20,239 bases of DNA from a virus: positions 1 through 20,239 of IMG/VR virus record IMGVR_UViG_3300036766_002100; one strand, written 5' to 3'. The notes below the pieces were generated by a model. The model ran no database searches. It was not told the DNA's origin and was given only the letters and a program-made list of their open reading frames with translations. A program made the translations under genes and the position numbers. The number at the start of each line of letters is the position of its first letter. The stretch's first letter is position 1. Of this stretch, positions 2,368 through 18,784 are shown one piece after another.

Positions 2368-2407
2368 ATCTACATACCCGGAAAAAATGTGAAGTGGCGG
2401 ATAATTC
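2368..2407 (-). promoter_or_regulatory. Conserved 40-nt element, copy A (candidate promoter of the head operon)
   Basis: This block matches copy B at 18745-18784 at 32 of 40 positions, same strand. On the minus strand the shared core reads CCGCCA, pyrimidine, TTC, a variable base, CA, then TTTTTCCGGGTA and TAGAT. It ends 69 nt before the ATG of the 65-aa gene and lies just downstream of an intrinsic terminator, where a new promoter is needed. TAGATC (2370-2365) could act as a -10 hexamer. Conservation covers the spacer as well, which suggests a protein-recognised element or an alternative-sigma promoter rather than an ordinary sigma-70 site. Confidence 0.55.
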
Positions 2408-2426
2408 GCGTAGAGAAGCAAGATGT

Positions 2427-2442
2427 GTTCTACCGGTAGAAC
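2427..2442. promoter_or_regulatory. Perfect 16-bp palindrome, possible operator
   Basis: GTTCTACCGGTAGAAC is identical to its reverse complement. It lies between the terminator and element A, upstream of the putative head-operon promoter. This is a natural place for an activator or repressor dimer. No second copy was noticed in the window. Confidence 0.4.
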
Positions 2443-2450
2443 TTGGCATG

Positions 2451-2476
2451 AAAAAAGACCGCATTTACATGCGGTC
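2451..2476 (-). terminator. Intrinsic terminator after the packaging operon
   Basis: On the minus strand a perfect 8-bp stem (GACCGCAT pairing with ATGCGGTC, 4-nt loop) is followed immediately by six T residues. It lies 20 bases after the zinc-ribbon stop codon. It should end packaging-operon transcripts, so the head genes need their own promoter or antitermination. Confidence 0.87.
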
Positions 2477-2496
2477 AAGGAAGTGGACTGGCTAAT

Positions 2497-2700
2497 CTAT
2501 GATGTCTTATATGCCTTTTCATAGGTTGTCACCCTACGGCCACAATTGCGGCATTCTCTACGGCGCAGAATGCGTCCACCTGATGCTGCGCGAGTATAGA
2601 GGACATGGAAATGCTTGCAGCCACAATTACGGCATTCCAGACCGCGCGGGCCGATGTTCTGAAGGTCCGAGAGTCGTATTCGTTTGTCTGAGTCAGTCAT
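2497..2700 (-). CDS. Stand-alone NrdR-like zinc-ribbon protein
   Basis: The 67-aa protein carries CRNC at residues 23-26 and CRNC at 50-53, with TRAASGGRILRRREC between them and RRVTTYEK after. This closely resembles the N-terminal zinc ribbon of NrdR, the repressor of ribonucleotide reductase genes. The ATP-cone that makes up the rest of NrdR is absent, so nucleotide sensing is not expected. The ATG overlaps the terminase stop by four bases (ATGA), implying translational coupling, and a terminator follows. Its position between terminase and head operons suggests a small DNA-binding regulator, for example of late genes as phage Ogr/Delta-type zinc proteins are, or an accessory packaging factor. 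The fold is well supported but the function is inferred. Confidence 0.85.
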   Translation of the reverse strand: MTDSDKRIRLSDLQNIGPRGLECRNCGCKHFHVLYTRAASGGRILRRRECRNCGRRVTTYEKAYKTS

Positions 2701-4970
2701 CGACTTCTCCCACCCTGTAAGTCAGAGAGCCGCATTTTTGTCTTCGTCGTAGCAGCCTTTTCGCCGGTTCCTGGCAGCAACGCGCCCTGAATGGAAGCGG
2801 CGACAGCGCAACCGACGAGGCAGTCGAGCCAATGGTTATCCAAAGCCTCAGGGCGTGATTTCCATTCGTCGACGACGCGGCCGCGTCCTTCTGTTTTCAC
2901 GCGGTATTCGGCGGTGAGATGCTCGGCGATGAGCCGGTGCGTCTGCGGGTCGCGGCCGAAGAGTGATAAGCAACCCCGGTCGCCCATTGGCACTGACAGC
3001 CGAGCATGGATGAAACTCTTCCAGTAGTTCGAGTCAAAGATCGCATGGCGAATGGCACGCTTGCCCTGCACGTTCGGTATGCGCCAGTTGTGGCCGACAC
3101 GGTCACCGCGCTTGCGCTTATACTCTTGGAACGGAACGCTTGCCGCGCCGACAAAGCGCCCGTGGCTGGGAAGCAGGGTTGCCGCGAACTCGCTTTGCCT
3201 GCAGAATTGATACACTATGTCGGTTGACGTTCCCCAGTTTGCATCGATAAGGCAACGCTCGATGCGCATCAACGCGCCGTCGTCTCGCCGCCATTCACGT
3301 CGGAGGCATTCTTTGGTAAGCGACTCCAACCCTGCATAAATGGAGCCTTCCAGACCTGTGCCTGTGGCTACTGTCTGCAGAGTCTTCTGAGCATCTCGCA
3401 GCGTGAAGTACGCGCGCCGCTGATCAGGATAAGCGCCGTAGTCGATGACGTACCCGGTGAAGTCGTCCTCGAACGCGGCAACAAGCCAGTAGAGTAATTT
3501 GCCCTGCACGTCGATAAACATCGCCAGATGGTTTGCTCCGACAGGAACTTCGCCGCGTTTCATGCCGTTCAACTTTGTGGCTATCTCGTCCGCAGAAAGC
3601 AGTCCCTCGTCTTCCACGCCTTTCTCTGGAAGCGGCTCATTCTGGTATTCGGCAAAGAACGCGGCCTCGTCCTGCAACTTAAGATTCATGGCGTGCTGGA
3701 CAGCGGACGCCTCGTCGTGATTGAATCGTTCCGGCCAGGCAATAACTGCGCCTTCATCGAGTGCCTCGCGGTTTGCTTCGTAGAACGCGGTCGCGTCACG
3801 CATATCGCCGTGCATGCGCAGAGACTCCGCGCGGATTTCGGTATACTTCGACCAGAGTTTCTCGTTGGTGGGGAACTCGTAGATCATCCGCGTGCGCTCG
3901 CCGTTCCATTCCGGGTGCTTGTCGCGGTCGAGAATCACGTCGGCCATATCGCCGGGGCGGATGACGGTGCAGGGCATTATCCCACTTATCTTCTTGCCAG
4001 GGCCAGCCAAGCCCAACACTGCGCCAGCGAGAATACGTTCACGCGTTGCACACTGCGAAAGCGACCGCGCGGATTCATCTGTCTGCGGGTCGTCCAAGAC
4101 CACGAGCGACGGGCGCACAGTCTGACCGTCCGCGCGCTTGTACTTCATGCCGCGAATACGGCCAGTGATACCAGTTACTTTGATGATCGCGCCGGACGCC
4201 TTGCTCTCAGGAATCGTCGGCAGGATGACCTCGTTCGCCGTCCAGCCGATGTGCGTCCGCTCGTTCTTGTAGATTTGCCCTGAGCACCGGTTGGCGATGC
4301 CGTCGATGCGATGAATCGGGAAGACGACCTCTGGGAAGTCGGCTTCCAGAGAATCATTTGCCTCCAGTTCCATCTTGATGCTGTCCAGCATCTCGACCGC
4401 GTGGACTTCCGACGCGCCGATGAGGCAGACGAATTCACTGTGGCCATACAGCACCGCCCATAGGCATGCGCACTCCGCAATACTTGTTTTTCCACTTCCG
4501 CGCGGCATTGCCAGTGAGAACAATCCGCCATGCAGAACCGCCTGCTCAACCTTGTGGATGATTTTCAGATGGTCCGGCGACCACGAGAGATGGAACGTCA
4601 GCGGGAAGTACGCCTCGCAAAAGTACTGGAAGTTGTTCTCAGCCCGTGCCTTTCGCTCTGAGTCAAGAACCGCGGGCAGTTCTCCGATGTCGCGTCCGGC
4701 CTCTGACTTCGCGCGATTGCGAGCCGCCTGACGCGCCTTCAATTTCTCGTAATCAACAGCTGGGTCAACGACCTTCTTGGGCGCGTTGCGCTGCTCGATG
4801 AGCCACGCGACATAGCGCAACAGATCCACGTGCTTGCCGTCGCCGATGCGAAAGCCAGCGTGCATGCGATGACGGTATAGTTGCCGTTCGTCGATGACCG
4901 TGCCGAGCGGCGTTGAGTTGAGAAGCCGCGCGAGGTCCGACGGTTTAAGATTTCTTGGGTCAATCGCCAT
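2697..4970 (-). CDS. Phage terminase large subunit
   Basis: At 757 aa this is a large terminase motor. The ATPase domain has Walker A MPRGSGKT (residues 155-162) and Walker B LVVLDDPQ (289-296). The C-terminal nuclease domain shows acidic residues in MFIDVQG (D487), LIDANWG (D576) and a late DNHWLDCLVG segment (about 718-727), consistent with an RNase H-like metal site. It cuts concatemeric DNA and pumps it through the portal. The first 70 residues or so precede the motor and resemble the adjacent 69-aa protein, so they may be a fused DNA-recognition domain. A GpA-like relationship is plausible given the lambda-type portal. The start is supported by GAGGGA shortly before the ATG. It overlaps the upstream gene by 11 bases and the zinc-ribbon gene by four. 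Confidence 0.95.
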   Translation of the reverse strand: MAIDPRNLKPSDLARLLNSTPLGTVIDERQLYRHRMHAGFRIGDGKHVDLLRYVAWLIEQRNAPKKVVDPAVDYEKLKARQAARNRAKSEAGRDIGELPAVLDSERKARAENNFQYFCEAYFPLTFHLSWSPDHLKIIHKVEQAVLHGGLFSLAMPRGSGKTSIAECACLWAVLYGHSEFVCLIGASEVHAVEMLDSIKMELEANDSLEADFPEVVFPIHRIDGIANRCSGQIYKNERTHIGWTANEVILPTIPESKASGAIIKVTGITGRIRGMKYKRADGQTVRPSLVVLDDPQTDESARSLSQCATRERILAGAVLGLAGPGKKISGIMPCTVIRPGDMADVILDRDKHPEWNGERTRMIYEFPTNEKLWSKYTEIRAESLRMHGDMRDATAFYEANREALDEGAVIAWPERFNHDEASAVQHAMNLKLQDEAAFFAEYQNEPLPEKGVEDEGLLSADEIATKLNGMKRGEVPVGANHLAMFIDVQGKLLYWLVAAFEDDFTGYVIDYGAYPDQRRAYFTLRDAQKTLQTVATGTGLEGSIYAGLESLTKECLRREWRRDDGALMRIERCLIDANWGTSTDIVYQFCRQSEFAATLLPSHGRFVGAASVPFQEYKRKRGDRVGHNWRIPNVQGKRAIRHAIFDSNYWKSFIHARLSVPMGDRGCLSLFGRDPQTHRLIAEHLTAEYRVKTEGRGRVVDEWKSRPEALDNHWLDCLVGCAVAASIQGALLPGTGEKAATTKTKMRLSDLQGGRSR

Positions 4971-5169
4971 TGAGTTCCCTCACGAGCCACGCCGCGTAAT
5001 GAACAAGATTGATACTGCCATCATGGTTCACCGGCGCGCCCGCGTCGATGTCCTTCTGCAACATTTCCACGGTAACGAGTCTGCCGCCTATCTTTGAAAG
5101 CAACTTTGCCGCGTCCGAAAGCGACAATGCATTTGGTCGCGCGCTCGTGCTAGGCGTGTGTTCGGACAT
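4960..5169 (-). CDS. Small packaging-operon protein, candidate terminase small subunit
   Basis: The product is 69 aa. The ATG at 5169 was chosen because AGGGAG precedes it by six bases; the in-frame upstream extension lacks such a site and reads like untranslated sequence. The protein contains LSLSDAAKLLSKIGGRLVT, then VEMLQKDIDAGAPVNHDG and NLVHYAAWLVREL. The same pattern (SD..A/RLL, central L, AG, DG, Y.AWL) recurs in the first 60 residues of the large terminase next door. The look is of a small helical DNA-binding domain, as in terminase small subunits or excisionase-like proteins. It is first in the packaging operon and overlaps terminase by 11 bases. Assignment as small terminase rests on position and this resemblance, not on a recognised family. 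Confidence 0.75.
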   Translation of the reverse strand: MSEHTPSTSARPNALSLSDAAKLLSKIGGRLVTVEMLQKDIDAGAPVNHDGSINLVHYAAWLVRELNGD

Positions 5170-5304
5170 TTGTTTCTCCCTGAATGTTGGGCCTTTCAGA
5201 AATCTTCCGTGCCTCCGCGAACATCTCGCAAGGTGCGCCACATGTCCGCATGTTTACGCTAGTTACGACCATGCTAAATCTCGCGGAATTCTCGCACGCA
5301 TGCC

Positions 5305-5332
5305 TTCCCTTTGCGCCAAAGCATCGTATGAT
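5305..5332 (+). promoter_or_regulatory. Promoter of the first rightward gene block
   Basis: A -10 TATGAT (5327-5332) lies 16 bases after TTCCCT (5305-5310). The surrounding sequence matches the region before the gene at 7146, including an exact 14-base GCATCGTATGATCC (5321-5334). A small palindrome, CTTTGCGCCAAAG (5309 or 5310 to about 5321), fills the spacer and could be an operator. The ATG is 50 bases downstream. The -35 is weak. Confidence 0.55.
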
Positions 5333-5381
5333 CCGATCAACGTAAACGATTTACAGGCAACCACATACGACGGAGGCAAAG

Positions 5382-5618
5382 ATGAAGAAAACGACGAAAA
5401 TCGAAACGGTAGAAACCTACGAGTGGCTGATGATGCCCGTGCGTCGCAAATGCGCAGGGATGGTATTGAAGCCAAGAATCCAGACCCTGAGTTGGGAGCA
5501 CCTCGGCAGGATTTACCGGCGCGGCGGACAGGACGCCACGAAAATCCGCGAGGCGATCAGAGCGGAGGCACACAGGTGCGGATACAAACCCGAAACCATT
5601 CTCACGCTGAATAGATAA
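5382..5618 (+). CDS. Hypothetical protein, 78 aa
   Basis: I do not recognise the family. The ATG follows GGAGG by five bases. The protein is basic, with a start MKKTTKIETVETYEWLMMPV and a helical C-terminal part containing RRGGQDATKIREAIRAEAHR, which could be a small DNA- or RNA-binding fold. It heads a run of five rightward small genes with spacings of about 10-20 bases, transcribed from the promoter at 5305-5332. Small early phage proteins acting on the host often look like this, but nothing in the sequence indicates a target. Confidence 0.75.
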   Translation: MKKTTKIETVETYEWLMMPVRRKCAGMVLKPRIQTLSWEHLGRIYRRGGQDATKIREAIRAEAHRCGYKPETILTLNR

Positions 5619-5628
5619 GGAGCGAGCG

Positions 5629-6006
5629 ATGACGACCAAACGAATCGACTGCAACAGATGTGAGCATACGCGCGAATGCCCGATCCCGCGCCATGTCAGA
5701 AAGGACGGCGTCGATACCTGCGACCTATATGAAGAACGTAATGAGCAGTCGCAGGAGATGAAAAAGCACACGCATACGATGGACAGGGGCACATACGAGT
5801 TGAACGTCGTATTCGAGGCCGCGGAATTTTCGGACATCAAAGAGGCAATCGCGCACGCCGAAGCATGCGCCCTCGAAGCAATACACCTCGACGGAAAATA
5901 CTTCGTGGTCGACCCGCTCGAGGCGGACCGCCTCGACGAAGCGGGAGCGACCTTCGCATTTGTGTATGACCTCGACGGCAAAATCGTAACGATACCAGTC
6001 AACTGA
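5629..6006 (+). CDS. Hypothetical protein with N-terminal cysteine cluster, 125 aa
   Basis: The ATG is preceded by AAGGAG at six bases and lies 10 bases after the previous stop. The first 31 residues hold four cysteines (8, 11, 17, 31) in a C-x2-C-x5-C-x13-C arrangement that could bind zinc or an iron-sulfur cluster. The remainder (from about residue 46) is acidic, alternating strand- and helix-like segments ending FAFVYDLDGKIVTIPVN. I cannot name a family. It is the second gene in the rightward block, probably co-transcribed with its neighbours. Confidence 0.8.
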   Translation: MTTKRIDCNRCEHTRECPIPRHVRKDGVDTCDLYEERNEQSQEMKKHTHTMDRGTYELNVVFEAAEFSDIKEAIAHAEACALEAIHLDGKYFVVDPLEADRLDEAGATFAFVYDLDGKIVTIPVN

Positions 6007-6020
6007 ACAGGAGGACAATG

Positions 6021-6413
6021 ATGACGACGTACAACGCAAAAGAACTCAACGCCTTGCAGGAAAACGAAGTCGATTTTCGCCACGCCATGTACAGCCTCAT
6101 CGAGGCCATGAACAACCTCGCCGTGAAATGCTGGATGCCGGACGGCACGCGCAACCTTTTGCGGAACATCGCCGCACACGCGAAAGCGCAAAGAACCGAC
6201 GCGGACATTTGGATTGGATTCCGCGACGACATCAAGCGCCGCAAAGAGGGTAAGGCGAAGAGCGCGGAACTGGACTTCCTTACCGCATTCGGATGGGCGG
6301 TCGAGGGGATGACTTATTCCTACGCCATGCTGGCCATGCCGACGAACGGACTCCCATACCTGTGCCTGCGCCGAGCAGCGTCCGCGCTCGCGACACTGAC
6401 CGCAAACTACTGA
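6021..6413 (+). CDS. Hypothetical protein, 130 aa
   Basis: Two adjacent ATG codons occur at 6018 and 6021. GGAGG at 6010-6014 is six bases from the second, so that start is preferred. The protein is mostly helical by eye: an N-terminal segment AKELNALQENEVDFRHAMYS, then NNLAVKCWMPDGTRNLLRNI, and a fairly hydrophobic C-terminal part (FGWAVEGMTYSYAMLAMPTN) that is too polar to be a clear membrane span. No catalytic motif is evident and I do not recognise the family. It is the third gene of the rightward block. Confidence 0.76.
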   Translation: MTTYNAKELNALQENEVDFRHAMYSLIEAMNNLAVKCWMPDGTRNLLRNIAAHAKAQRTDADIWIGFRDDIKRRKEGKAKSAELDFLTAFGWAVEGMTYSYAMLAMPTNGLPYLCLRRAASALATLTANY

Positions 6414-6431
6414 GACTAGGAAGGAACAACC

Positions 6432-6671
6432 ATGAAAGAGTTCACATTTGAATACGAGTTTTACACGGGACGCGTCTGGCGCAACGGTGGCCACTATACA
6501 GACATCGCTTGCGAGAAGCGGACCATCAAGGCCGCGAACTTTCAGGCCGCGCAGGCAATCGCGCATGTTTATGCCAAGCATTTGCTGACGCGATGGAACT
6601 GCGATGAAGTCAAGTATCAAGAACTGACGCTGGACGCCACGCACGTCTGCGTCGCGACAAAGAACCAATAA
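6432..6671 (+). CDS. Hypothetical protein, 79 aa
   Basis: The ATG follows GGAAGGA by six bases. The N-terminus MKEFTFEYEFYTGRVW and the C-terminus QELTLDATHVCVATK look like strands flanking a helix (NFQAAQAIAHVYAKHLLTRW), a small alpha-beta domain. No family is recognised. It lies 18 bases after the preceding stop and 18 before the next start, within the rightward block. Confidence 0.78.
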   Translation: MKEFTFEYEFYTGRVWRNGGHYTDIACEKRTIKAANFQAAQAIAHVYAKHLLTRWNCDEVKYQELTLDATHVCVATKNQ

Positions 6672-6689
6672 CACGAAAGGACGGCAACC

Positions 6690-6998
6690 ATGCAGATGAG
6701 ACCATTTATCGAACCCGATTGGCACGCGTTTGCCGGAGCAGACGGATGGGGTGAAGACGAATCTATTGCGCCGCTTATCGCGGAAGGCACGTTCAAGAAC
6801 GGCGTCGACTATACGCTGATCCTGGCGCACAACGGCGGGACGCTCCTCGCGGACGACGAGACAGCCGCATACGGCGGATACGTTCTGCCGCGATATTTCG
6901 ACACGGTTGAAGATGCACGTGCGTTTGCGGAACGCCTTGGCGAACCGGAAACCATCGACGCGTTTCTGGCGGCTGGATTCCAAAGCCAAGCATTTTGA
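6690..6998 (+). CDS. Hypothetical acidic protein, 102 aa
   Basis: The ATG follows AAAGGA at a spacing of eight bases. The protein is acidic, rich in Asp, Glu, Gly and Ala, with DGWGEDESIAPLIAEGTF, a central DYTLILAHNGGTLLADDE and a C-terminal helix VEDARAFAERLGEPETIDAF. Small acidic early proteins are common among phage inhibitors of host DNA-binding enzymes, including DNA mimics. That is only a suggestion here. It is the last gene of the first rightward unit. A 147-base gap with a direct repeat and a second promoter follows. Confidence 0.76.
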   Translation: MQMRPFIEPDWHAFAGADGWGEDESIAPLIAEGTFKNGVDYTLILAHNGGTLLADDETAAYGGYVLPRYFDTVEDARAFAERLGEPETIDAFLAAGFQSQAF

Positions 6999-7010
6999 AC
7001 GGCGAGGGGA

Positions 7011-7034
7011 GCCTAACACAAGGCCTAACACACT
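7011..7034. repeat. Tandem 12-bp direct repeat
   Basis: GCCTAACACAAG (7011-7022) is followed directly by GCCTAACACACT (7023-7034), identical over the first 10 bases. It lies in the gap between the two rightward units, upstream of the promoter at 7071-7098. Confidence 0.6.
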
Positions 7035-7070
7035 ATTGGAAAATAAGTTACATAATTTCAGGAATGTGCC

Positions 7071-7098
7071 TTGGCTTTCACACCCCGCATCGTATGAT
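7071..7098 (+). promoter_or_regulatory. Promoter of the second rightward gene block
   Basis: TTGGCT (7071-7076) and TATGAT (7093-7098) are separated by 16 bases. The region shares 24 of 33 bases with that at 5302-5334, including an exact GCATCGTATGATCC (7087-7100). The distance from -10 to start codon is also the same (48 versus 50 bases). The pair therefore look like paralogous promoters under common control. Confidence 0.6.
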
Positions 7099-7145
7099 CC
7101 ATGCGACGTTTGAAACATACAACGATTACGAAACGGAGGACAACG

Positions 7146-7526
7146 ATGACCGAGAAGAAAAAGACGTACAAGACGCTCCTGAACGCGCGATTCCCGAGCG
7201 CGGACGCTGAGAAAGAAGAGCAGAAGCAAATCGAACGCAGGAGGATCAAACGCCAACTCAACCAGACCGCCATCGAGCGGTACACGGATGTAAAGAACGA
7301 CATTGCCTCGCTCCTCGACCTGATTGGCGAAGAGATGCGGGTGCACGCGCAAGGCGCGGAAGCGCATCCCAAAAATTGGGGCAACACCGGGGACGCCACA
7401 AACATTCGGACGAGCCTCAAGAACGTCCTCGAATTCCTGCTCATCGGCAGATACAGCTGGACAGAAACTGAAGCGTCGCGATTCATCGAGGACCACCTTG
7501 AGTCGCTGCGCGAAGACAAGAGATAA
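7146..7526 (+). CDS. Hypothetical charged helical protein, 126 aa
   Basis: The ATG at 7146 is preceded by CGGAGG. An earlier in-frame ATG at 7101 lies essentially at the predicted transcription start and is unlikely. The N-terminal half is highly charged (KEEQKQIERRRIKRQ around residues 24-38) and may form a coiled coil. The C-terminal half includes SLKNVLEFLLIGRYSWTETE. I do not recognise the family. It is the first gene of the second rightward unit, ahead of the HARE-HTH gene. Confidence 0.76.
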   Translation: MTEKKKTYKTLLNARFPSADAEKEEQKQIERRRIKRQLNQTAIERYTDVKNDIASLLDLIGEEMRVHAQGAEAHPKNWGNTGDATNIRTSLKNVLEFLLIGRYSWTETEASRFIEDHLESLREDKR

Positions 7527-7565
7527 CGAACCGTTTTCCCTTTTTCCAAAACACAGGAGGATGTC

Positions 7566-8424: not shown

Positions 8425-8439
8425 TTGTCCCCTCGTTTC

Positions 8440-8510: not shown

Positions 8511-8524
8511 GAGGATTTACCAGC

Positions 8525-9702: not shown

Positions 9703-11019
9703 TCATGCCGTCACCTCTGAAGCGACGCGCTCGGCCTTCTTGCCCGTGAACTCCTCCCAGCGGCGAACGATAACGTCACAGTAGAGTTCGTCGAGTTCCA
9801 TGAGAAATGCCTTGCGCCCGGTTTTCTCGGCGGCGATGAGTGTGGACCCGCTGCCGCCAAACAGGTCCAGGACGTTCTCGCCCGGGTGCGACGAATAGAT
9901 CATGGCACGTTCCGCGAGTTCGACGGGCTTTTCGGTGAGGTGAATCATGCTCTGCGGATTGACCTTCTTCACGCTCCAGACGTCCGTGGCGTTCTTGATT
10001 TCAGGATTGAAGTAGTGCGCCGCGCCTTCACGCCAACCGTAAAAAGACCACTCGTGGTTCCCCATGAAATCTTTCCGCGTAAGGACCGGATGTTCCTTCA
10101 CCCAGATAATCATCTGTGAGAAGTAGAGTTCGCAGTCCTTGAGCGCGTTGGGGTAGTTCCAGATATTGCTGTACCCGCCCCAGATATAGTACGCGCGCCC
10201 GGGTTCCAGAACGCGCTGGATGTTGCCAAACCACGCACGCAATAGCCGCGCGAATTCTTCGTCGGAAACAAAGTCGTTTGCGAGAGCGCGGTCCCTCGGA
10301 CGCAGTTTCACTTGTGTTGTTTCGCTGGCCTTTTCCAATCCTTCCACACCGACATCGAGCCCCTGATTCCCTATGAATTTGCCGGTTGCGCGGGCTGCGG
10401 CCACGGCTGCATTACTCCTCGGTGCCACGCTGACATTATATGGCGGATCACAGTTGACAAGTTGAATCCGTGCGCCGTCGAGCAGGCGGTCCACATCCTC
10501 CGACTTGCTGGAGTCACCACAGAGAAGACGGTGATTGCCGAGAATCCACAGGTCGCCCGGGCGCGTGGTTGCCTCGTCGGGCGGCGCGGGCACAGCGTCA
10601 GGGTCTGTGAGTCCTTCCGTGCCCGTTGCGCCAAGTATCTTCTCCAGTTCTTCGCTGGAAAAGCCCAGCAACGCCAGGTCAACATCCATGCCACGCAGTT
10701 CGGACAGTTCGATGGGCAGGAGTTCCATGTCCCACGTGGCGAGTTCCGCGACCTTGTTGTCAGCGATGCGATACGCTTTGATCTGCTCAGGCGTCATGTC
10801 GGTGGCCACGTGGACGGGCACTTCCGATAGGCCTAGTTTCAACGCGGCCTTTAAGCGCGTGTGTCCAACGATGATGACGCCGTCCGCGTCCACAACGATT
10901 GGTTGCCGGAACCCGTACTCGCGTATCGAGTGGGCCACGGCATCGACCGCCGCGTCGTTGTCGCGCGGGTTCTTGTCATACGGTTTGATGTCTGTGGTCT
11001 TGCGCATTTCAATTTGCAT
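9703..11019 (-). CDS. DNA methyltransferase with N-terminal ParB-like domain
   Basis: The 438-aa protein begins with a ParB/sulfiredoxin-like domain (about residues 6-115; KPYDKNPRDN and GHTRLKAALKLG). A DNA methylase follows, with catalytic DPPY (191-194), HLTEKPVEL (360-368) and the AdoMet-binding DLFGGSGST (385-393). The order DPPY before FGGSG, with a target region between, is that of beta-class N6-adenine or N4-cytosine methylases. ParB-methylase fusions are common orphan methyltransferases of phages, protecting phage DNA or affecting packaging and regulation. No restriction endonuclease is encoded nearby. AAGGAG lies upstream of the ATG. It is downstream of the Mom-like gene on the same strand with a hairpin-bearing 93-base gap, and is convergent with the Fic gene, 11 bases apart. 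Confidence 0.95.
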   Translation of the reverse strand: MQIEMRKTTDIKPYDKNPRDNDAAVDAVAHSIREYGFRQPIVVDADGVIIVGHTRLKAALKLGLSEVPVHVATDMTPEQIKAYRIADNKVAELATWDMELLPIELSELRGMDVDLALLGFSSEELEKILGATGTEGLTDPDAVPAPPDEATTRPGDLWILGNHRLLCGDSSKSEDVDRLLDGARIQLVNCDPPYNVSVAPRSNAAVAAARATGKFIGNQGLDVGVEGLEKASETTQVKLRPRDRALANDFVSDEEFARLLRAWFGNIQRVLEPGRAYYIWGGYSNIWNYPNALKDCELYFSQMIIWVKEHPVLTRKDFMGNHEWSFYGWREGAAHYFNPEIKNATDVWSVKKVNPQSMIHLTEKPVELAERAMIYSSHPGENVLDLFGGSGSTLIAAEKTGRKAFLMELDELYCDVIVRRWEEFTGKKAERVASEVTA

Positions 11020-11062
11020 GATTCATGCTCCTTATAAGTGTGAAAATATCCTCGATTCCAGG

Positions 11063-11099
11063 TCTGACCAACGTAACGTCTGACGTTAAATTGGTCAGA
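11063..11099. promoter_or_regulatory. Two-stage hairpin between the Mom-like and methylase genes
   Basis: Outer arms TCTGACCAA (11063-11071) and TTGGTCAGA (11091-11099) pair perfectly. Inner arms TAACGT (11074-11079) and ACGTTA (11083-11088) also pair, around a CTG loop and separated from the outer stem by 2-nt internal bulges. No T-run follows on either strand, so it is not an obvious terminator. It could be a dyad operator, an RNA-binding-protein site or a processing site ahead of the methylase. Confidence 0.6.
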
Positions 11100-11112
11100 A
11101 TCGCTGTTGCGG

Positions 11113-11910
11113 TTAATTCCTAAAAGGAAGCCGCGTCTGTCCGGCTTCGCTTGATTTCAATGGAGCGGGGTGACGGAACCGCCCCGTCCCCTCCAGCCGG
11201 GGTGGCTGGCAGCTCTCTCTTGAGCCTTCCCCCGCATCAACCCACCAGCGGCAGTCCGCTGTCTTGGGATATACTTGCGCCCAGCGAACGGACGACTCGC
11301 GCAGGAGTCGTTTGCGTTCAGCATGGCCGCAAAGGAATTTTACATACCGAAACTGGTAGCCTTTCCACTTCGAGAAACCTTGCCGCATCCATTCGGCGCG
11401 ACTGCGCGTGCCGAGGCGCGTAATCATCAGGCGCGGATGTACCGGCCCGCCGTGTTCGTCAACATAGAGGTCCGTCTTGATGAACCCACCATAAAGCCAC
11501 GACGACGCCTGGTAGACGTAACCGGGCTTGCCGCGAAGACCATCCGCCCATGTGAATAGCAGTTTGACGTTTGGGCAGTTGGTGCGTATCCACTCGACGC
11601 AGAGCGATATGAAGTACGACTCCGAGTTGCGCGGTTCGTCGTCGCGCAGGCATAATCGGTTCAATTCCAAATAGTCGTTTACGCCGAGGCTTGGAAAGAG
11701 CCGCTGAATCGTGTGGCGCGGTCTGACACCCCAACCCCACATGCCGACGGCAATCAAATCCCCTGCGGCGTTTCGCAAGCCAAGGTTCACGAGACAATGC
11801 GGCGGGAAGATTTTCGAATAGTGCCAGCGCAGGCAAAACTGCTTCGCCTCGTGAAGCGCTATGCGCTCCACATTGCCGATGCTGGAACCCTTGCGAAACT
11901 CCGCGTTCAT
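11113..11910 (-). CDS. Mom-like DNA (adenine) modification protein, GNAT-type
   Basis: The 265-aa product resembles the phage Mu Mom family, which converts adenine in DNA to N6-methylcarbamoyladenine and so resists restriction. Supporting segments are FCLRWHYSK (25-33), LIAVGMWGWGVRPRHT (52-67), LELNRLCLRDDEPRNSES (81-98) and LLFTWADGLRGKPGYVYQAS (117-136), followed by SWLYGGFIKTDLYVD. Family members share a GNAT-like acyltransferase fold. Assignment is by motif pattern only, and the exact substrate is unknown. The gene sits immediately before the ParB-methylase and after a highly structured leader. In Mu, mom is controlled at both transcription and translation, so control may also be elaborate here. 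The Pro/Arg-rich C-terminus (about 225-265) looks disordered. GAGGGG lies five bases before the ATG. Confidence 0.82.
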   Translation of the reverse strand: MNAEFRKGSSIGNVERIALHEAKQFCLRWHYSKIFPPHCLVNLGLRNAAGDLIAVGMWGWGVRPRHTIQRLFPSLGVNDYLELNRLCLRDDEPRNSESYFISLCVEWIRTNCPNVKLLFTWADGLRGKPGYVYQASSWLYGGFIKTDLYVDEHGGPVHPRLMITRLGTRSRAEWMRQGFSKWKGYQFRYVKFLCGHAERKRLLRESSVRWAQVYPKTADCRWWVDAGEGSRESCQPPRLEGTGRFRHPAPLKSSEAGQTRLPFRN

Positions 11911-11942
11911 GCCAACCCCTCTCTCAAAACTCGCCTAATTAC

Positions 11943-12007
11943 CGCGAACCCTTCGCGCCACGTTGCGATAAGGCGCGTCCTGTGCGCCAAGCCGTAGAAC
12001 TACGCGG
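11943..12007. other. Cluster of three hairpins in the leader of the Mom-like gene
   Basis: Three hairpins lie in 65 bases just upstream of the Mom-like start codon at 11910: CGCGAA-ccc-TTCGCG (11943-11957), GGCGC with GCGCC (11972-11988), and CGTAG-aa-CTACG (11993-12004) extended by GCC/GGC. None is followed by T residues on the minus strand. They may form a structured 5' leader controlling translation. The rest of the gap to 12119 shows nothing I recognise. Confidence 0.45.
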
Positions 12008-12119
12008 CCTTGCGGAAAAACCGGCAAAAAACAACAAACTGTGTCATGTAGCGTGGCTGTTCCCGCGCACGTAACCTTTCGATTCTGCTACCGGGGAACC
12101 ATTGAACCGGCCCGGCGCT

Positions 12120-12364
12120 GGTGAAAGAAACGAAACGGGTGAAAGAATAAAATGTCGCAACCAGCATCACAACGGGCACTTAAGTCATTCGATACATATT
12201 TCATTTCTTTCACCACCCCCTCACGCGCACACACAGACAAGAAAAGAAAGAAGAAAAATGAGAGGGGGGTAGGGGTGAAAGAGAGAAAGAAATATATAAG
12301 AATATATAGAATATATATTTATATATATTAATACTTTCACTTTTCTTTCTCTTTCTTTCACCCC
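12120..12364. other. Origin-like region: iterons plus AT-rich unwinding element
   Basis: A 10-bp repeat GGTGAAAGAA occurs at 12120-12129 and 12138-12147, and inverted (TTCTTTCACC) at 12205-12214 and 12353-12362. A one-mismatch copy lies at 12274-12283 and a partial CTTTCAC at 12334-12340. The copies at 12272-12281 and 12355-12364 extend to a perfect 10-nt inverted repeat (GGGGTGAAAG/CTTTCACCCC) bracketing a stretch in which 41 of 43 bases are A or T (12291-12333). Purine- and pyrimidine-rich tracts flank it. Iterons beside an AT-rich element, next to the primase-helicase gene, are the classic layout of a replication origin. The primase stop codon (TGA) lies inside the last iteron. Confidence 0.65.
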
Positions 12365-14529
12365 TTAGCCTCCAACTGATACAGCAGGGACGGATGCCCT
12401 TGTGCTGATTGCGGAACCTTGGCAACCTTGATGTCGCCCTGTTGACAAAGCGTGTCGACGATCTTCTGGAACGTCTGCGCATCGAGTTTCATACGCTTAA
12501 GCAGAACGCTGTGCGGTAGCGTTCTGTCCGGCGCGTTTCGAAGCTTCTCCACAAACTTCAGACAGTCCGCGTGGAACGGGTTGTCCGCGACATGGCTCTG
12601 CGCCATGAAGAGCATTCGGCGCGTCTGGTGCATTACAAACTTCGTGGCCCACTCCATCGCCGCCAGACTAATGCGCGGCGACTCGTGGTTCTCGCTTACG
12701 GCATAGATAAGAGCGAGTTTGCGTGTTTGCTCACTGACACGGCCCCAGACAGTTGTGCCAACTGGGTCGCCAGCGGCTTCAGCACTTGCATACTCGGCCT
12801 CGGCTTGCTCACGCGTCTCGATGAGAACACGCTTTGCATCCTCGGTATGCTCAACGATGCGCGGCTCAGGATGCCATTTCTCAAGATTGCCCGTTCCTGG
12901 CTGAAAGTCTGCCCACCATTTTGCGGCGGCAAGAATGCGCAGCGGCAGTTCGAGTATTTTCGGCTCTTGCCCCTTGGGGCGCGGCCCGCTTTCAAGGATA
13001 AGCATGCGAGCGAAAAAGCCGTTCGTGAGCATGCGTTCCGAAAGCGCCTCATAGTAGTGATTCGGAATCGCCGTGCCGAAGATAACGAGACACGGCTGAT
13101 CAATTGCCCCTGGCGGTTCCTTACTGGCCTTGCGACGCATTGGGAACACGCTGTTCGAGGCTGAATAGAGCGTGAGCAGGGTGCTCATTACGTTCTCATG
13201 CCGTGCGTCCTTCGCTTTGTTGATGGTCTGAAGCATCCCATCGATTTCGTCGGTCTGGAAAAGCATCGACGGCTTGATGAACAGCGCGTCCTGGATGCCT
13301 TCGCCGCTCGCGAACCGCTCGCCAAGGCAGTCGCTCATGCCCACTTGATGGAGAATGCGCGTGTTGACCTTTCGCGGCCAGTCTTTGCCTGCGGCCGAGT
13401 GCGCAAGACCCAGGAGATAAATGTTGGTGCGGTTATCGCCTGGATCACGCACTTTGCGACCGGCGAGAAATGCCTGTAAGGCCAGCGCACCGGCAAATGC
13501 CATGACAATGTTCGGATAGGGCGCTGTCTCCAACGAGTAGTCCATTACTTCTGAGACGAAGCCAGGAATGCGTAGCAGTTCCTCTGGCAACGGTCCGGGG
13601 TCGGGCAGCGATGATGTCAGTTCTTGCTCGCACGGAGCGACGTTGGCCACAATACCGGAGATGTCGACGTCTGATTGTGTTGTGGTATCCTGGTCTCTGA
13701 GCCAGCCAAAAGGCTTATCGTGCGGCTTTGCGGCCGCATCTTCGACCTTGTGACGCAGTTCTTTCTCGCTCCAAGGTGGCTGACAGCGCGGGTTGTAATG
13801 AGCGAAAAGCATTTCCAGAGCGCGGTCCTTAGGGATTCCGAATCCGTGAACGAGCACCACGGCCGCTGAATAGGTTGAATTGTGTCCGCTTTGTCCGCTG
13901 ATGGCCTCTGGCATTGCATTGAGATACGCGAGCGCACGCTTTTCAAGATCGTCGGTAGTCTGAAAAACTCGCGTCTCAAGATTCAGTGTTTGCAGGTTGC
14001 CTTTGAGATTGTCGAGAATCTCCGCGAGCCATGCTGGCGGCTCTGGTAATTTATCTGGCGAAACGTTCAATTCCATGCCCGGTGCCCAGCGATACACGCC
14101 ATCGTGGCGCACAGAAGGCGGCGCAATGACATAGCCGCCGAAACCGCGCGTGTCGATTTTGGGTGCGATCCTGCTTTGCGTGTTTCCCCAGGCGCGTCCA
14201 GCGGGTTGCCGGAAGATGTGATGCCGCCCGCCTCGTGGTGTGAGCGATACAAACGTCGCAAGCTCCGATTGCTTATCGGGATCGTCGGCAAGCCAGGAAT
14301 TATCCGCACCGTCGATGTCGATGACGATAAGCCCCGCTGTAGCGATCCCGATATTTGCGTTGGGCGTTTGTTGCCACCACGCTTCAATCTGCGCCACATC
14401 TGTCGTTGCATCCTTGAAACCGTGCTCCGTAATGGGACTTGAGCCGCCCGGCTTGCAAGGAAAGACAGGGTAGCCCAGTTCCGCATACGCGAGTGCTGCA
14501 TCCCGGAGCGCTGTATTCGGGCCGTTCAT
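12358..14529 (-). CDS. Bifunctional primase-polymerase / DUF3987 helicase-like protein
   Basis: About 723 aa. The N-terminal prim-pol domain (about 10-170) shows GYPVFPCKPGGSSPI, the metal-binding VIDIDG (69-74), TPRGGRHHIF (97-106) and DTRGFGGYVIAPPS (126-139), as in archaeo-eukaryotic-type primases. A linker (about 215-275) resembles a primase C-terminal domain. A DUF3987/SF3-like ATPase domain follows, with a Walker A-like GLAHSAAGKD (374-383) and Walker B-like LFQTDEIDG (about 424-431). The last 60 residues look like a winged helix. It would prime and unwind phage DNA. I chose the ATG at 14529, five bases after the previous stop; a TTG at 14547 adds six residues and cannot be excluded. 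It is the last gene of the replication operon, ending at the origin-like region. Confidence 0.93.
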   Translation of the reverse strand: MNGPNTALRDAALAYAELGYPVFPCKPGGSSPITEHGFKDATTDVAQIEAWWQQTPNANIGIATAGLIVIDIDGADNSWLADDPDKQSELATFVSLTPRGGRHHIFRQPAGRAWGNTQSRIAPKIDTRGFGGYVIAPPSVRHDGVYRWAPGMELNVSPDKLPEPPAWLAEILDNLKGNLQTLNLETRVFQTTDDLEKRALAYLNAMPEAISGQSGHNSTYSAAVVLVHGFGIPKDRALEMLFAHYNPRCQPPWSEKELRHKVEDAAAKPHDKPFGWLRDQDTTTQSDVDISGIVANVAPCEQELTSSLPDPGPLPEELLRIPGFVSEVMDYSLETAPYPNIVMAFAGALALQAFLAGRKVRDPGDNRTNIYLLGLAHSAAGKDWPRKVNTRILHQVGMSDCLGERFASGEGIQDALFIKPSMLFQTDEIDGMLQTINKAKDARHENVMSTLLTLYSASNSVFPMRRKASKEPPGAIDQPCLVIFGTAIPNHYYEALSERMLTNGFFARMLILESGPRPKGQEPKILELPLRILAAAKWWADFQPGTGNLEKWHPEPRIVEHTEDAKRVLIETREQAEAEYASAEAAGDPVGTTVWGRVSEQTRKLALIYAVSENHESPRISLAAMEWATKFVMHQTRRMLFMAQSHVADNPFHADCLKFVEKLRNAPDRTLPHSVLLKRMKLDAQTFQKIVDTLCQQGDIKVAKVPQSAQGHPSLLYQLEAKG

Positions 14530-14534
14530 GTCAT

Positions 14535-14894
14535 TTAATCTCGCCAAATTATCTGCTTTCCGAACACGCCGCTGATTTTGTCTCCCCCTTCATCGTACAG
14601 AAACAGCTGTGATAGCGTGGTGCGACCTTTGTGAAAGTGAAATTTTGCGGCGAAGACGTGCCCGCTTTCGCACGCGAGATCAATTTCAATGGCAACACCG
14701 CGACCCTCTGGCGCAACGAGATGATCATGCTGGATGCCCTGATCGGTTATTGTCACTTCGCCGCCCTGTTGGCCTGCGGGATTGCATCGCAATGCCCAAG
14801 GGTAGGTTCTATCGCTGCCGCACACCGGGCAAAGGATTTTCCTCTCTGAATACATTTGCCCTGTAGCACATGGATGAGGGGATTTGTTGTTCAC
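14535..14894 (-). CDS. Hypothetical zinc-binding protein, 119 aa
   Basis: The start is a GTG at 14894 with AAGGAG seven bases upstream, just after the stop of the 44-aa gene. A CPVCGS knuckle (residues 22-27) and later cysteines in LRC and LACESGH suggest a zinc site. The rest is strand-rich, with ending DKISGVFGKQIIWRD. I recognise no specific function; similar small knuckle proteins are common in phage replication clusters. The stop precedes the primase ATG by five bases, so the two are likely co-translated. Confidence 0.8.
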   Translation of the reverse strand: MNNKSPHPCATGQMYSERKILCPVCGSDRTYPWALRCNPAGQQGGEVTITDQGIQHDHLVAPEGRGVAIEIDLACESGHVFAAKFHFHKGRTTLSQLFLYDEGGDKISGVFGKQIIWRD

Positions 14895-14905
14895 GTTCTT
14901 GCTCC

Positions 14906-15040
14906 TTATCTTTCAGGACTGAATTTGCGATACTTGTCAAGGCAGACGATCTCTTTCTCCTTGCATTCGGCGATGCAGTTGCGCCAGTCTCGCCACCATG
15001 CCGCAAGCCGAGTGGAATGGATTCTAACGAGATTCCTCAT
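14906..15040 (-). CDS. Small hypothetical protein, 44 aa
   Basis: The ATG at 15040 overlaps the stop codon of the upstream 101-aa gene (ATGA), and the TAA at 14906 overlaps the Shine-Dalgarno of the next gene, so it fits exactly in the operon. The peptide starts MRNLVRIHSTRLAAWWRDW and has a cysteine pair (C-x3-C) and a basic, aromatic, amphipathic helix-like middle. No family is recognised. Tight packing is the main evidence that it is real. Confidence 0.65.
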   Translation of the reverse strand: MRNLVRIHSTRLAAWWRDWRNCIAECKEKEIVCLDKYRKFSPER

Positions 15041-15342
15041 GCTATTGCCTCGTCGACTGCTGGTTCAGCGCATTGACTTTGCTGTTTTCTGCGCATGAAG
15101 ACTCCGTCTGGCAAAGCACGAACGCCTGCGGTGCAGAATGCGCATTTGATTCGCTGAGCGCTCCTGGCTGAGATCAACTTGTCGCCATGCTGCAACCGCG
15201 CGAGCCGCTTCTGCATGCGGATATACAGGTCGAGTTCGCCCAACCTTTCCGCATCTTCGCAGGCATATATCTGGCCGCGGATTTCCAGCCACGGTTCAGT
15301 GTGATACTGGCTTTGTGTTTCTTTTCTGATTCTCTTTTTCAT
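15037..15342 (-). CDS. Hypothetical protein, 101 aa
   Basis: The ATG follows GAGGAG by five bases, and that site overlaps the helicase stop. The N-terminal half is charged and helical (EDAERLGELDLYIRMQKRLA). The second half contains KCAFC and a later cysteine (QSQC), which may bind metal. No family is recognised. It lies between the helicase and the 44-aa gene in the replication operon. Confidence 0.8.
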   Translation of the reverse strand: MKKRIRKETQSQYHTEPWLEIRGQIYACEDAERLGELDLYIRMQKRLARLQHGDKLISARSAQRIKCAFCTAGVRALPDGVFMRRKQQSQCAEPAVDEAIA

Positions 15343-15351
15343 GTACGCTCC

Positions 15352-17061
15352 TCAAAATGGCACGTCTTCGGCAATTGCTTCAGTTATGTTGGACGGTTCC
15401 ACTTCATCCCAACCCGGCTCGCGATAATCCGGCTTCTCGCCAAGTTCGCAATTGATGATGCGGTCGTACTTCTCGCCCGTCACATGGCGCACGGTAATTT
15501 TTGTGGTTTCGCAGAGCGCGCCGGCGTTAGCGAGGTCAACCGCTTCTTCGACAGTCGATGGAACAGACACGCTCGACCGTTGTCGCCACCATACCTCAGC
15601 CTTGGCCCTTGCGTACCCCGTGTGCTCGAAGCAGACCCATTCCGATTGCCAGCGGCGGAAACCGATGCGATAATCGACGCGCATGGTGGGTCGCGCTGTG
15701 AACGCTGCTTCGATATTGTCCACCTTGGGTGAACCGTTACGCTTGTGGTGAATCGAGTAGGTCGCTTCCTGCACTTCATAGTCCGTCACTGTGACCTGCC
15801 CGCTGAGTATCCCAGCCTCGCTGGCCTTCGCTTCATGCTTGTTGCGTTCTGGTGGTGGGAACTCATAGCCACAGTCGGGACACTTCGTATATGCGGCGTG
15901 AATGACCGCGTTGCACTCCGGGCATTCTTTAGCAGGCGCATCGCCAGAACCATTCTCTTGAGGCTTGATGCGCAACGCGTCTACGGGCCCATGCCGCATG
16001 ATGTTGCCGCCAAAATCGAGGACTAAGCAATCCGTCTTGCTTTCGCACAACCGGAAACCTCGCCCGACCATTTGGTAATAGAGTCCTGGGGACATAGTAG
16101 GTCTAAGTAGAGCGACGCAGTCGATGTTCGGTGCGTCAAAACCCGTAGTGAGAACATTGACGTTGACCAAATGCTTCAGACATCCGCTGCGGAACTTGTT
16201 CAGTGTCTCGGCGCGCTCCAGTGACAACGTGTCACCGGTCACCAAGCCACACTCATGGCCAAGGCCCGTCAGCGTTTGCTGCACGTGCATAGCATGGTTC
16301 ACTCCGCTGGCGAAAATGAGAACCGCGCGTCGGTCTTGTGTGTGCTCGATGATCTCGTTGCACGCCGAACGTACCAGCGCAGCATCGTCCATGAGGTTCT
16401 CGACCTCTAGCGGGATGAACTCGCCGCCACGTATGTGCAGACCGGAAGTGTCGACCTTGCTTTTGCCGGATTTCGACTTCAGTGGGCAGAGGTAGCATTG
16501 CGCAATCAGTTCACGCACTCCGATCTCATAGCAAATCTCGTTGAGGATGTTGTCTGGTTCGCATATTGTGCCAGTGGCCATGCGGAATGGCGTCGCTGTC
16601 AGACCAATAACGCGAAGTCGCGGATTCACCGTCTTCATATCCGCAAGAAGTGTCCGGTACATTCCATCGCCATCCGCCGGAATCATATGCGCTTCATCAA
16701 TGATGACGAGATCGAAGCGGCCAAGGTCCAGAGCGCGCTTGTAGATTGACTGCACTCCCGCAACAATAATGGGGTGGTCGGTGTCGCGGCTTTTGAGACC
16801 AGCAGAGTAGACGCCGACCTGCAGGAGTAACTCAGGGGCAACCTGGCGAATCTTGTCGACAGCCTGTTCGAGCAACTCCTTCACGTGCGCAACGATAAGG
16901 ACGCGGCCTTGCCACAGTCCAACCGCGTCCTTGCAGATGCTTGCCATAACCGGCGTCTTGCCACCCGCTGTCGGAATTACGACGCACGGATTGACATCGT
17001 GTTCGCGCAAGTAACGATAGACTGCCTCAACGGCCTCTTGCTGGTATGGTCTCAGTTGCAT
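15352..17061 (-). CDS. SF2 DEAD/DEAH-box helicase with C-terminal zinc ribbon
   Basis: The 569-aa protein carries the superfamily 2 motifs in order: RPYQQEAV (4-11), Walker A PTAGGKT (30-36), DEAH (122-125), TATP (155-158), LTTGFDAP (304-311) and QMVGRGFR (330-337). A zinc ribbon (CPEC at 380-383 and CPDC at 394-397) and a C-terminal extension of about 170 residues follow; these may help bind branched or forked DNA. The closest familiar group is the RadD/UvsW-like phage and host helicases acting in recombination and replication restart. The neighbouring RusA resolvase, ssDNA-binding protein and Sak4-like ATPase fit this role. The ATG is one base beyond the RusA stop. Confidence 0.94.
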   Translation of the reverse strand: MQLRPYQQEAVEAVYRYLREHDVNPCVVIPTAGGKTPVMASICKDAVGLWQGRVLIVAHVKELLEQAVDKIRQVAPELLLQVGVYSAGLKSRDTDHPIIVAGVQSIYKRALDLGRFDLVIIDEAHMIPADGDGMYRTLLADMKTVNPRLRVIGLTATPFRMATGTICEPDNILNEICYEIGVRELIAQCYLCPLKSKSGKSKVDTSGLHIRGGEFIPLEVENLMDDAALVRSACNEIIEHTQDRRAVLIFASGVNHAMHVQQTLTGLGHECGLVTGDTLSLERAETLNKFRSGCLKHLVNVNVLTTGFDAPNIDCVALLRPTMSPGLYYQMVGRGFRLCESKTDCLVLDFGGNIMRHGPVDALRIKPQENGSGDAPAKECPECNAVIHAAYTKCPDCGYEFPPPERNKHEAKASEAGILSGQVTVTDYEVQEATYSIHHKRNGSPKVDNIEAAFTARPTMRVDYRIGFRRWQSEWVCFEHTGYARAKAEVWWRQRSSVSVPSTVEEAVDLANAGALCETTKITVRHVTGEKYDRIINCELGEKPDYREPGWDEVEPSNITEAIAEDVPF

Positions 17062-17062
17062 T

Positions 17063-17416
17063 TCAGTGGTTTGCGATAGTGTTTATGCGGACGATTACCT
17101 TGCCGCCAGGAAACGTTGTGCGGCGGCGGATGTGAATATCATCAATCTGGCTGTCATCGCGGTACACGCCGCCGTGCTGAATCGCATCGAATAGACTTTT
17201 TTGAACGTTGTCAATATCGCGTCTGCGGTGGTCCGGCGGGTAAACATCGACTTCCACCATAAGAGGTCCGTCCAGTCGACGCATCCCCCGCGCCGCGAGG
17301 ATCGAAACGACGCGTGCGCGAAATTTCCGACCCTCGCGGCTGATTAGTGTCCTGCCGCGCCATCGGCGGTAATAGTGATTCACCGATGGTGGAAACGGCA
17401 GTTCGAGCAGAATCAT
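17063..17416 (-). CDS. rusA: RusA-family Holliday junction resolvase
   Basis: At 117 aa it matches RusA in length and motifs: a start LELPFPPSVNHYYRR, the acidic cluster RRRDIDNVQKSLFDAI (D67, D69) and VYRDDSQIDDI (D87, D88), corresponding to the catalytic aspartates of RusA. As a dimer it cuts four-way DNA junctions formed during phage recombination and concatemer resolution. The ATG overlaps the DUF669 stop by four bases, and the helicase follows one base after the stop. Confidence 0.94.
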   Translation of the reverse strand: MILLELPFPPSVNHYYRRWRGRTLISREGRKFRARVVSILAARGMRRLDGPLMVEVDVYPPDHRRRDIDNVQKSLFDAIQHGGVYRDDSQIDDIHIRRRTTFPGGKVIVRINTIANH

Positions 17417-17877
17417 TTACGCGCCCATGGGGCTGTGGTCTGCTGTGTGGGTGGCTGGGCTGGTTTCGCAGCGTTTGCGGTTTCACGCTTTGCGTAGCCA
17501 GTTACCTCGTTGACAACGTCGCCGGTGTCCTCGCGCTTCTTGCACTTCACGCTGATGACAAGCGGGATGTTGTGCAACTCCGCGCTGTCGCCGGGCGTCA
17601 TTACATTGACGGCGTGGCAAATGGCCGAGAGTTGCGCTCGGGAAATCTTGACCGTCTGCGGATTGGGATGGTCTAGGCAGAGGCGCGCCCAGACCATGCG
17701 GTCCTTGTACTCGCCTTCGAGAATGGCGAAGGTCAGTTGCAGATAATTGCCCGCGCCGTTCTTGGTGGGCTTCGTCTCCGAGTCAGTTATCGCGGCAACG
17801 TACTTGCCCGCGGGAATCGGGTCGAATGCCACGGTCGGTTGCACTTGGTTCGCGTTGAATCCGTTGAGTTGCGCCAT
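17413..17877 (-). CDS. DUF669 family (ssDNA-binding-like) protein
   Basis: The 154-aa sequence is typical of DUF669: FDPIPAGKYVAAITDSE, KPTKNGAGNYLQLTFAILEG, then EYKDRMVWARLCLDHPN and KISRAQLSAICHAV. These proteins are found beside Sak/Sak4, RusA and helicase genes in phages and are thought to act like single-strand binding proteins. The C-terminus (about 130-154) is Pro/Gln/Thr-rich and ends PWARK, a flexible tail but not the acidic one typical of SSB. It starts three bases after the stop of the Sak4-like gene. Confidence 0.9.
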   Translation of the reverse strand: MAQLNGFNANQVQPTVAFDPIPAGKYVAAITDSETKPTKNGAGNYLQLTFAILEGEYKDRMVWARLCLDHPNPQTVKISRAQLSAICHAVNVMTPGDSAELHNIPLVISVKCKKREDTGDVVNEVTGYAKRETANAAKPAQPPTQQTTAPWARK

Positions 17878-17880
17878 GGG

Positions 17881-18672
17881 TCAGTTCTCCTGTGGATTGG
17901 TGTTAATGGGATTGATGGGATTCACGATTGCATCCATGATGGCCTGCCACGAGAGAGGCAGTTCAGCAGGCATTGAGTAACGGTTCTTCGCCACACAGGC
18001 CGGAGAGCCGACGCAGCGCAGAATGCGTTCACCTCCGTCCTTTCCAAGACCGGCCGCGATTGTGCGGTCGCGCCCGAAACCCGTCTCTTCCGTCTTCGTG
18101 ATGATTTTGCGCGTGGCGAAGAGCACTGCGTCGGCCCATTCCGTTACGACTCCTGTCGCGTGACGATTCAGGCGCGGGGAATAGCGGTCGTAAGCCATCG
18201 CCTCCGGGTCTTCGTATCGCTCGACCCTCGCGTGCGCCAAAAGAATGACGCACATCCCGCGCGCGAAACGCAGTTCATTCAGGTCGGTCAGCATGTTGCG
18301 CCAGTGGTTGAGCGCGTGCGTGTAGCCTTTGGCGTAGCCGCCGTCCACCTTCTCGATGCACGATACGCCGTACTGCTCGCAAAGAGCGTCCCAGATGAGC
18401 CGCTCCAGCCAATCGAGAGAATCGATTATCACCGTTTCGTAGTCGTGCTTCTGGTGAATCAGTTCCTGAATCGCCGCCTGGACATCGTCAAAACGCTTGG
18501 CCAGCGGGAAACTGTTGCATGCGATCTGGTCGAGACCATCTTCAGTCGCGATGAAAATCGGCTTGGGGGACTGCGCGGCAAGAGTGCTCTTGCCGATGCC
18601 TTCCGTGCCATAAATCAAGATTCTTGGCGGTGTCTGACGGCGTCCACTGTGCACTTGTTCAAGCATTGACAT
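17881..18672 (-). CDS. Sak4-like RecA-fold ATPase (AAA_24)
   Basis: The 263-aa product has Walker A GTEGIGKST (22-30), Walker B VIIDS (81-85) and the AAA_24/Sak4 layout (PKPIFIATEDGLDQI; CVILLAHARVERYEDP). Such phage ATPases assist single-strand annealing and recombination together with an SSB-like partner, here DUF669. I chose ATG 18672 because GGAGG precedes it by six bases; an ATG at 18690 lacks one. The C-terminus has a short tandem NPINPINTNPQ encoded by a 9-bp repeat. It heads the replication/recombination operon, about 70 bases after conserved element B. Confidence 0.9.
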   Translation of the reverse strand: MSMLEQVHSGRRQTPPRILIYGTEGIGKSTLAAQSPKPIFIATEDGLDQIACNSFPLAKRFDDVQAAIQELIHQKHDYETVIIDSLDWLERLIWDALCEQYGVSCIEKVDGGYAKGYTHALNHWRNMLTDLNELRFARGMCVILLAHARVERYEDPEAMAYDRYSPRLNRHATGVVTEWADAVLFATRKIITKTEETGFGRDRTIAAGLGKDGGERILRCVGSPACVAKNRYSMPAELPLSWQAIMDAIVNPINPINTNPQEN

Positions 18673-18744
18673 TGAGTTCCTCCGATTCATGGGGAAATGT
18701 GGATTTCATTTCGAGAATGTTTTTGATCATGTGGTCACCTATTT

Positions 18745-18784
18745 ATCTAACTACCCGGAAAAAGTGCGAAATGGCGGTGAGTTC
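18745..18784 (-). promoter_or_regulatory. Conserved 40-nt element, copy B (candidate promoter of the replication operon)
   Basis: Same strand as copy A (2368-2407) and identical to it at 32 of 40 positions. The core, pyrimidine tract and CCGGGTA are the most conserved. It ends 72 nt before the Sak4-like ATG, against 69 nt for copy A and its gene. It overlaps the last bases of the sigma-factor gene. TAGATA at about 18749-18744 is a possible -10. Confidence 0.55.

Follow-up and report, generated by a model that had tools for sequence, protein, structure and literature searches.

Predicted promoters matched to a phage-encoded ECF-type sigma factor in phages of Planctomycetota

The window, meaning the whole stretch of DNA analysed here, is a linear virus-genome fragment of 20,239 bases (record IMGVR_UViG_3300036766_002100). 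Its minus strand carries, in this order, genes for a sigma factor, Sak4, SSB, RusA, helicase, primase, a Mom-family protein, a ParB-methylase, terminase, an NrdR-like zinc ribbon, a connector and portal. The sigma factor gene (18783..19376, minus strand) encodes an ECF-type protein of 197 aa. It is followed by the replication operon, whose first gene encodes a Sak4-like recombinase (17881..18672, minus strand; AAA_24, from domain and profile matches) and which continues with SSB, RusA, helicase and primase. The head operon begins with a small connector-like gene of 65 aa (2101..2298, minus strand), an ORF with a ribosome-binding site. The connector-like protein has no Pfam match of its own, and its gene is kept in relatives between terminase and portal. 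Beyond it lies the gene for a lambda-family portal protein (641..2101, minus strand; Phage_portal_2, E=2e-55). A preliminary description of this DNA had named head and replication operons downstream of two repeated elements, and these genes bear it out.

Two further regions of the window are worth recording. One lies between the primase and Mom genes (12119-12363), where an AT-rich core is surrounded by four boxes resembling GGGTGAAAGA, which face both ways; similar boxes are present in the closest relative (G001) and the region is a candidate replication origin. In the other (9703-11910), the Mom-family gene adjoins the gene for the ParB-domain DNA methylase, a pair which suggests that the phage DNA is modified.

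The repeated elements are two 40-nt blocks on the minus strand, identical at 32 of 40 positions and ending 69 nt before the connector-like gene and 72 nt before Sak4, all of which reproduces the preliminary description. A 26-nt core (CCGCCAnTTCnCAnTTTTTCCGGGTA, with three mismatches or fewer) has two matches in the window, and 100 dinucleotide-preserving shuffles contained none. TTTTTCCGGGTA is found at both element sites and nowhere else in the record, and the pair is the longest direct repeat among those listed for the window. Each element consists of CCGCCA, 13 nt and CCGGGTA, which is the two-box promoter type. In the predicted replication-operon promoter (18745..18784), directly 3' of the sigma stop codon, the -35 box CCGCCA is at 18772..18777 and the -10 box CCGGGTA at 18752..18758. 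In the predicted head-operon promoter (2368..2407), the same boxes are at 2395..2400 and 2375..2381. The first of these promoters had been said to overlap the end of the sigma gene. It does so by 2 nt of the stop codon, and since the first box begins 5 nt past the stop, 'abuts' is the better word; gene and promoter, supposed to be physically fused, are merely adjacent. No Rfam family was found in the window.

An intrinsic terminator (2457..2476, minus strand; 8-bp stem followed by TTTTTT) lies upstream of the head promoter. In the window, this strong terminator stands between the head promoter and the operon upstream of it, an arrangement which is not general, as a terminator was found at this place in six of 28 phages (1.6 expected). 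A perfect 16-bp palindrome, GTTCTACCGGTAGAAC (2427-2442), lies between terminator and head promoter and is present at the same place in G001, despite the different promoter there. It is a possible operator.

From profile matches and a structure model, the 197-aa protein is a two-domain ECF (group IV) sigma factor, composed of sigma2 (residues ~10-86), a linker and sigma4 (~130-195), with no sigma3. The window protein matches PHROG 1740 (sigma factor, E=1.5e-8), and its match to Pfam Sigma70_r2 (E=6e-5) is just below the curated cut-off (23.2 vs 24 bits). As a single-protein query it gave no relatives in the scan. Among 16 members of the family, Sigma70_r2 was found in 15 (best 7e-10) and Sigma70_r4_2 in six. 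The alignment of all 16 was too diverse to be used as a search query, and two narrower alignments succeeded. When the family profile was compared with PDB structures, it matched the ECF factors SigE and RpoE. An AlphaFold model built from 48 family members has confident helical domains at ~10-86 and ~130-195, joined by a low-confidence linker (pTM 0.41, confident within domains only). The PDB matches listed for this model are sigma factors, and its sigma4 matches region 4 of E. coli SigmaE in complex with -35 DNA (67 residues, rmsd 3.3). Canonical ECF promoters have a -35 box GGAAC and a -10 box CGTC. The elements here do not match these boxes, which weakens only the assignment to the typical ECF form because box sequence differs between ECF groups.

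The window terminase has 537 relatives in IMG/VR. In sequenced genomes, almost all relatives carry the label Planctomycetota. Isolate chromosomes contain prophages with the identical order of sigma, Sak4, terminase and connector genes. A search of relatives for the element had been suggested as a check. The window's own sequence was absent from them, as they have their own version, and the relatives' own elements were found at equivalent places. Absence of the window's sequence was therefore dropped as a refutation. Most relatives have a pair of their own, with one copy directly 3' of the sigma stop and the other before the connector. In a first screen for self-repeats, 31 of 119 sigma loci were above control, a low yield because many loci stop short of the head operon and some matches are hairpins. 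The region after the sigma stop was then matched with the pre-connector region of the same phage in 45 non-redundant phages and prophages, with pairs of phages having < 30% sigma identity as the null. The median score was 19.0 within phages and 8.0 in null pairs; 35 of the 45 exceeded the null at the 95% level and 28 at the 99% level. Scores between elements of different phages increased with sigma identity. In about ten of the 45, this score gave no clear shared element; their boxes may be weak, their sigma ends misassigned or their wiring different.

In G008 and G021, the head operon is inverted, and so is the element. Four phages (G001, G025, G038 and G046) have a third copy before the DUF2924-serine recombinase operon, so the sigma factor probably controls excision or integration as well. 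The sigma-stop element of L214, L217, L220 and L222 lies inside an inverted repeat of 67-77 bp, unlike that of most other phages. In G003, G008 and G021, a near-perfect hairpin of 32-36 bp is located ~50-90 nt past the sigma stop, just downstream of the promoter, in what is presumably the leader of the replication transcript.

The boxes were defined by aligning 28 phages, anchored on the -10 core. The -10 anchor is 23-40 nt past the sigma stop, mostly 28-31 (G113a, with a misassigned stop, was left out), and 41-98 nt upstream of the connector. Both boxes are conserved between the two copies in a phage, and the spacer differs even there. The preliminary description had included the spacer in the conserved part; the conserved CCGGGTA is in fact the -10 box, and the spacer is variable in general. 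There are several lineage-specific box types, among them CGTCA with CGGGTA, and GGACA or GCGCAG with CGGCATA.

Similarity between head elements followed that between sigma proteins (rho 0.53; partial Mantel p=0.0005, among phages pre-selected for having a match). A smaller effect persisted without selection by match (partial r about 0.31, p=0.001). For terminase, portal, connector and Sak4, the corresponding rho values were 0.04-0.08. In most of these genomes, 10-20 kb separate the head element from the sigma gene, so the correlation with the sigma protein is not explained by linkage. The two boxes behaved differently: with the other region controlled for, the -10 box tracked sigma region 2 (r=0.51) and the -35 box region 4 (r=0.47); the spacer tracked neither appreciably. 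This double dissociation was reached in none of 2000 permutations (permuting distances reduces phylogenetic dependence and does not fully remove it), and the partial correlations between box and region persisted among pairs with < 40% sigma identity.

An operator for a phage repressor or activator, with the sigma gene adjacent by chance, might also be repeated in this way, given that short repeats before operons are typical of phage operators too and that the palindrome GTTCTACCGGTAGAAC is beside the head copy. However, the elements are non-palindromic, their two boxes stand a fixed distance apart and covary with separate sigma domains, and the elements as a whole track the sigma protein rather than the neighbouring genes. 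It is thus very improbable that they are operators, and the reading as promoters of the phage sigma factor is preferred.

Covariation may extend to single residues. Among 24 phages, R71 pairs with G at -10 position -1 and S with C. T175 is found together with CGTCA, and R175 mostly with C at the corresponding base; the window sigma factor has R175 and the window -35 box is CCGCCA. Drawn from 24 phages, these residue-base pairs are leads and not proof, and they agree with the domain assignment.

Natural swaps between phages are revealed by comparison of the window with its closest relative, G001. Terminase and Sak4 are 93% and 96% identical, respectively, and the sigma factor only 25%. The element of G001 is its own (42 of 48 positions identical between its two copies) and is found at the same two places as that of the window. 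The two genomes align at 77-87% through most of their length. This alignment begins 12 nt before Sak4, downstream of the sigma gene and of the promoter next to it, and breaks off on each flank of the head promoter. In G002, which has a portal 98% identical, this block around the head promoter has likewise been replaced. The sigma end of the window is related instead to that of G003 (81% DNA identity over the preceding gene and the first part of the sigma gene), and the G003 element is of the window's type. As read from these alignments, the sigma gene and its matched promoters are exchanged between phages as cassettes. G002 (L134) and G007 (L139), both close to the window by terminase, have other sigma-like genes and other shared pre-connector elements.

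Since sigma gene and element do travel together between phages, the repeats could be sites for recombination or packaging that were multiplied by copying, their likeness to the sigma phylogeny reflecting co-transfer. Co-transfer alone predicts neither the pairing of -10 with region 2 and -35 with region 4 nor conserved boxes with a variable spacer in between. Furthermore, the sigma-stop and head copies face the operon that follows, on either strand. Co-transfer of such sites is an extremely improbable origin for the elements, which are better explained as promoters matched to the sigma factor.

The distribution of elements within hosts bears on their specificity. Three host genomes, 6.6-10.8 Mb in size, each contained exactly two copies of the element of their prophage, both inside that prophage, and co-resident prophages of one host had different elements. 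Many ECF sigma factors are found in Planctomycetota and phage early genes need host polymerase, so ordinary host promoters, or host alternative-sigma sites copied by phages, must be considered. Both the confinement of the copies to the prophage and the different elements in prophages of one host argue against them, and no sigma-70-type promoter match was found at the elements. The chance that the elements belong to the host in this way is almost negligible. Phage-specific promoters, read by the phage's own sigma factor, fit this distribution.

Rhodopirellula rubra has four prophages (L397, L399, L405 and L407) with four sigma types which are no more than 38% identical to each other; other hosts have the same types, at 89-97% identity. 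By a rough count, chance could produce this pattern, and the draft genome G100 has two identical sigma genes; avoidance of the same sigma type among the prophages of one host is suggestive only. It is possible, if rather doubtful, that sigma type approximates a prophage compatibility group, so that co-resident sets would be mutually unreadable and a phage would change group by swapping its sigma gene, together with every unlinked promoter, as matched cassettes. If so, inducing one prophage would leave co-resident ones off.

Taken together, the elements are, with a probability of roughly 0.92, promoters of the phage-encoded ECF-type sigma factor, with a lineage-specific sigma factor and promoters to match. 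The phage-specific promoter class first suggested for this DNA, read by the encoded sigma factor, is strongly supported by comparison, through equivalent elements in relatives, unlinked covariation and boxes resolved by domain. It is on covariation that the status of these sites as phage-specific promoters before phage operons rests.

Given the presence, position, orientation, matching and domain-resolved covariation of the elements, core binding, transcription starts, timing and early expression of the sigma gene may be proposed as follows. The sigma gene would be expressed first, presumably via host holoenzyme, and its product would bind host core RNA polymerase. Region 4 would read the -35 box (CCGCCA in the window) and region 2 the -10 box (CCGGGTA in the window). 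Transcription of the replication operon would begin just beyond the stop codon of the sigma gene itself, and a second start ~16 kb downstream would drive the head operon. A third copy, present in some relatives, may drive the DUF2924-serine recombinase operon. Each phage lineage would have its own sigma specificity, with promoters matched to that sigma factor.

Such a system would supply, within a single phage group, dozens of matched pairs of sigma factor and promoter as a natural library, whose covariation is sufficiently fine to hint at residue-base contacts (R71 with a -10 base and R175 with a -35 base). Co-evolution of sigma factor and promoter, and the joint change of a regulator and its unlinked sites, become directly testable. 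It would also constitute a transcription programme for phages of Planctomycetota, of which no earlier description was found, and a source of candidate orthogonal promoters for the phylum. In the open-access literature, no description was found of this phage group or sigma family. On homology to the sigma factors gp47 of phage 7-11 and gp36 of phiEco32, a tblastn search of phages matched only sigma genes of Wolbachia phage WO (19-24% identity), and a GAP52 sigma factor appeared weakly in a fold search.

As in cellular ECF (group IV) systems, a sigma2-sigma4 protein of ~200 aa is associated with two-box promoters of ECF-like spacing. Unlike them, the window has no copy of the promoter upstream of the sigma gene itself and no recognised anti-sigma gene next to it, and its boxes are unlike GGAAC/CGTC. 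Phage sigma factors that redirect host polymerase to middle or late genes are known from T4 (gp55) and SPO1 (gp28, gp33 and gp34), both lytic phages, and late transcription in T4 uses the sliding clamp gp45. Redirection of host polymerase by a phage sigma factor is likewise proposed here; no relationship to the T4 or SPO1 factors was seen in the searches made. In Staphylococcus aureus, host sigmaH is reported to modulate prophage integration and excision via a conserved 40-bp untranslated region (PMC2869324). Both cases combine an alternative sigma factor with a 40-bp region in prophages; sigmaH is host-encoded, whereas the prophage here supplies its own sigma factor.

The best parallel is provided by Salmonella phage 7-11 (SaPh711_gp47) and coliphage phiEco32 (gp36), whose sigma factors direct host core polymerase to middle and late promoters (PMC8948821). 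Promoters of 7-11 are bipartite, GTAAtg-(16)-aCTA; the two phages are homologous, yet their sigma factors share ~15% identity and recognize different promoters at similar genome positions (PMC8948821). Here too, phage sigma factors and promoters have diverged and their positions have stayed similar. Both 7-11 and phiEco32 are lytic phages of enterobacterial hosts, with six to eight promoters each and two specificities that were tested biochemically (PMC8948821). In contrast, those described here are temperate phages of Planctomycetota and have two or three promoters each, predicted by comparison, with many matched specificities and one promoter abutting the sigma stop codon. Phage sigma factors with their own promoters were already known from phiEco32 and 7-11; what is new is a sigma family in phages of Planctomycetota with many matched specificities, and their apparent exchange as cassettes.
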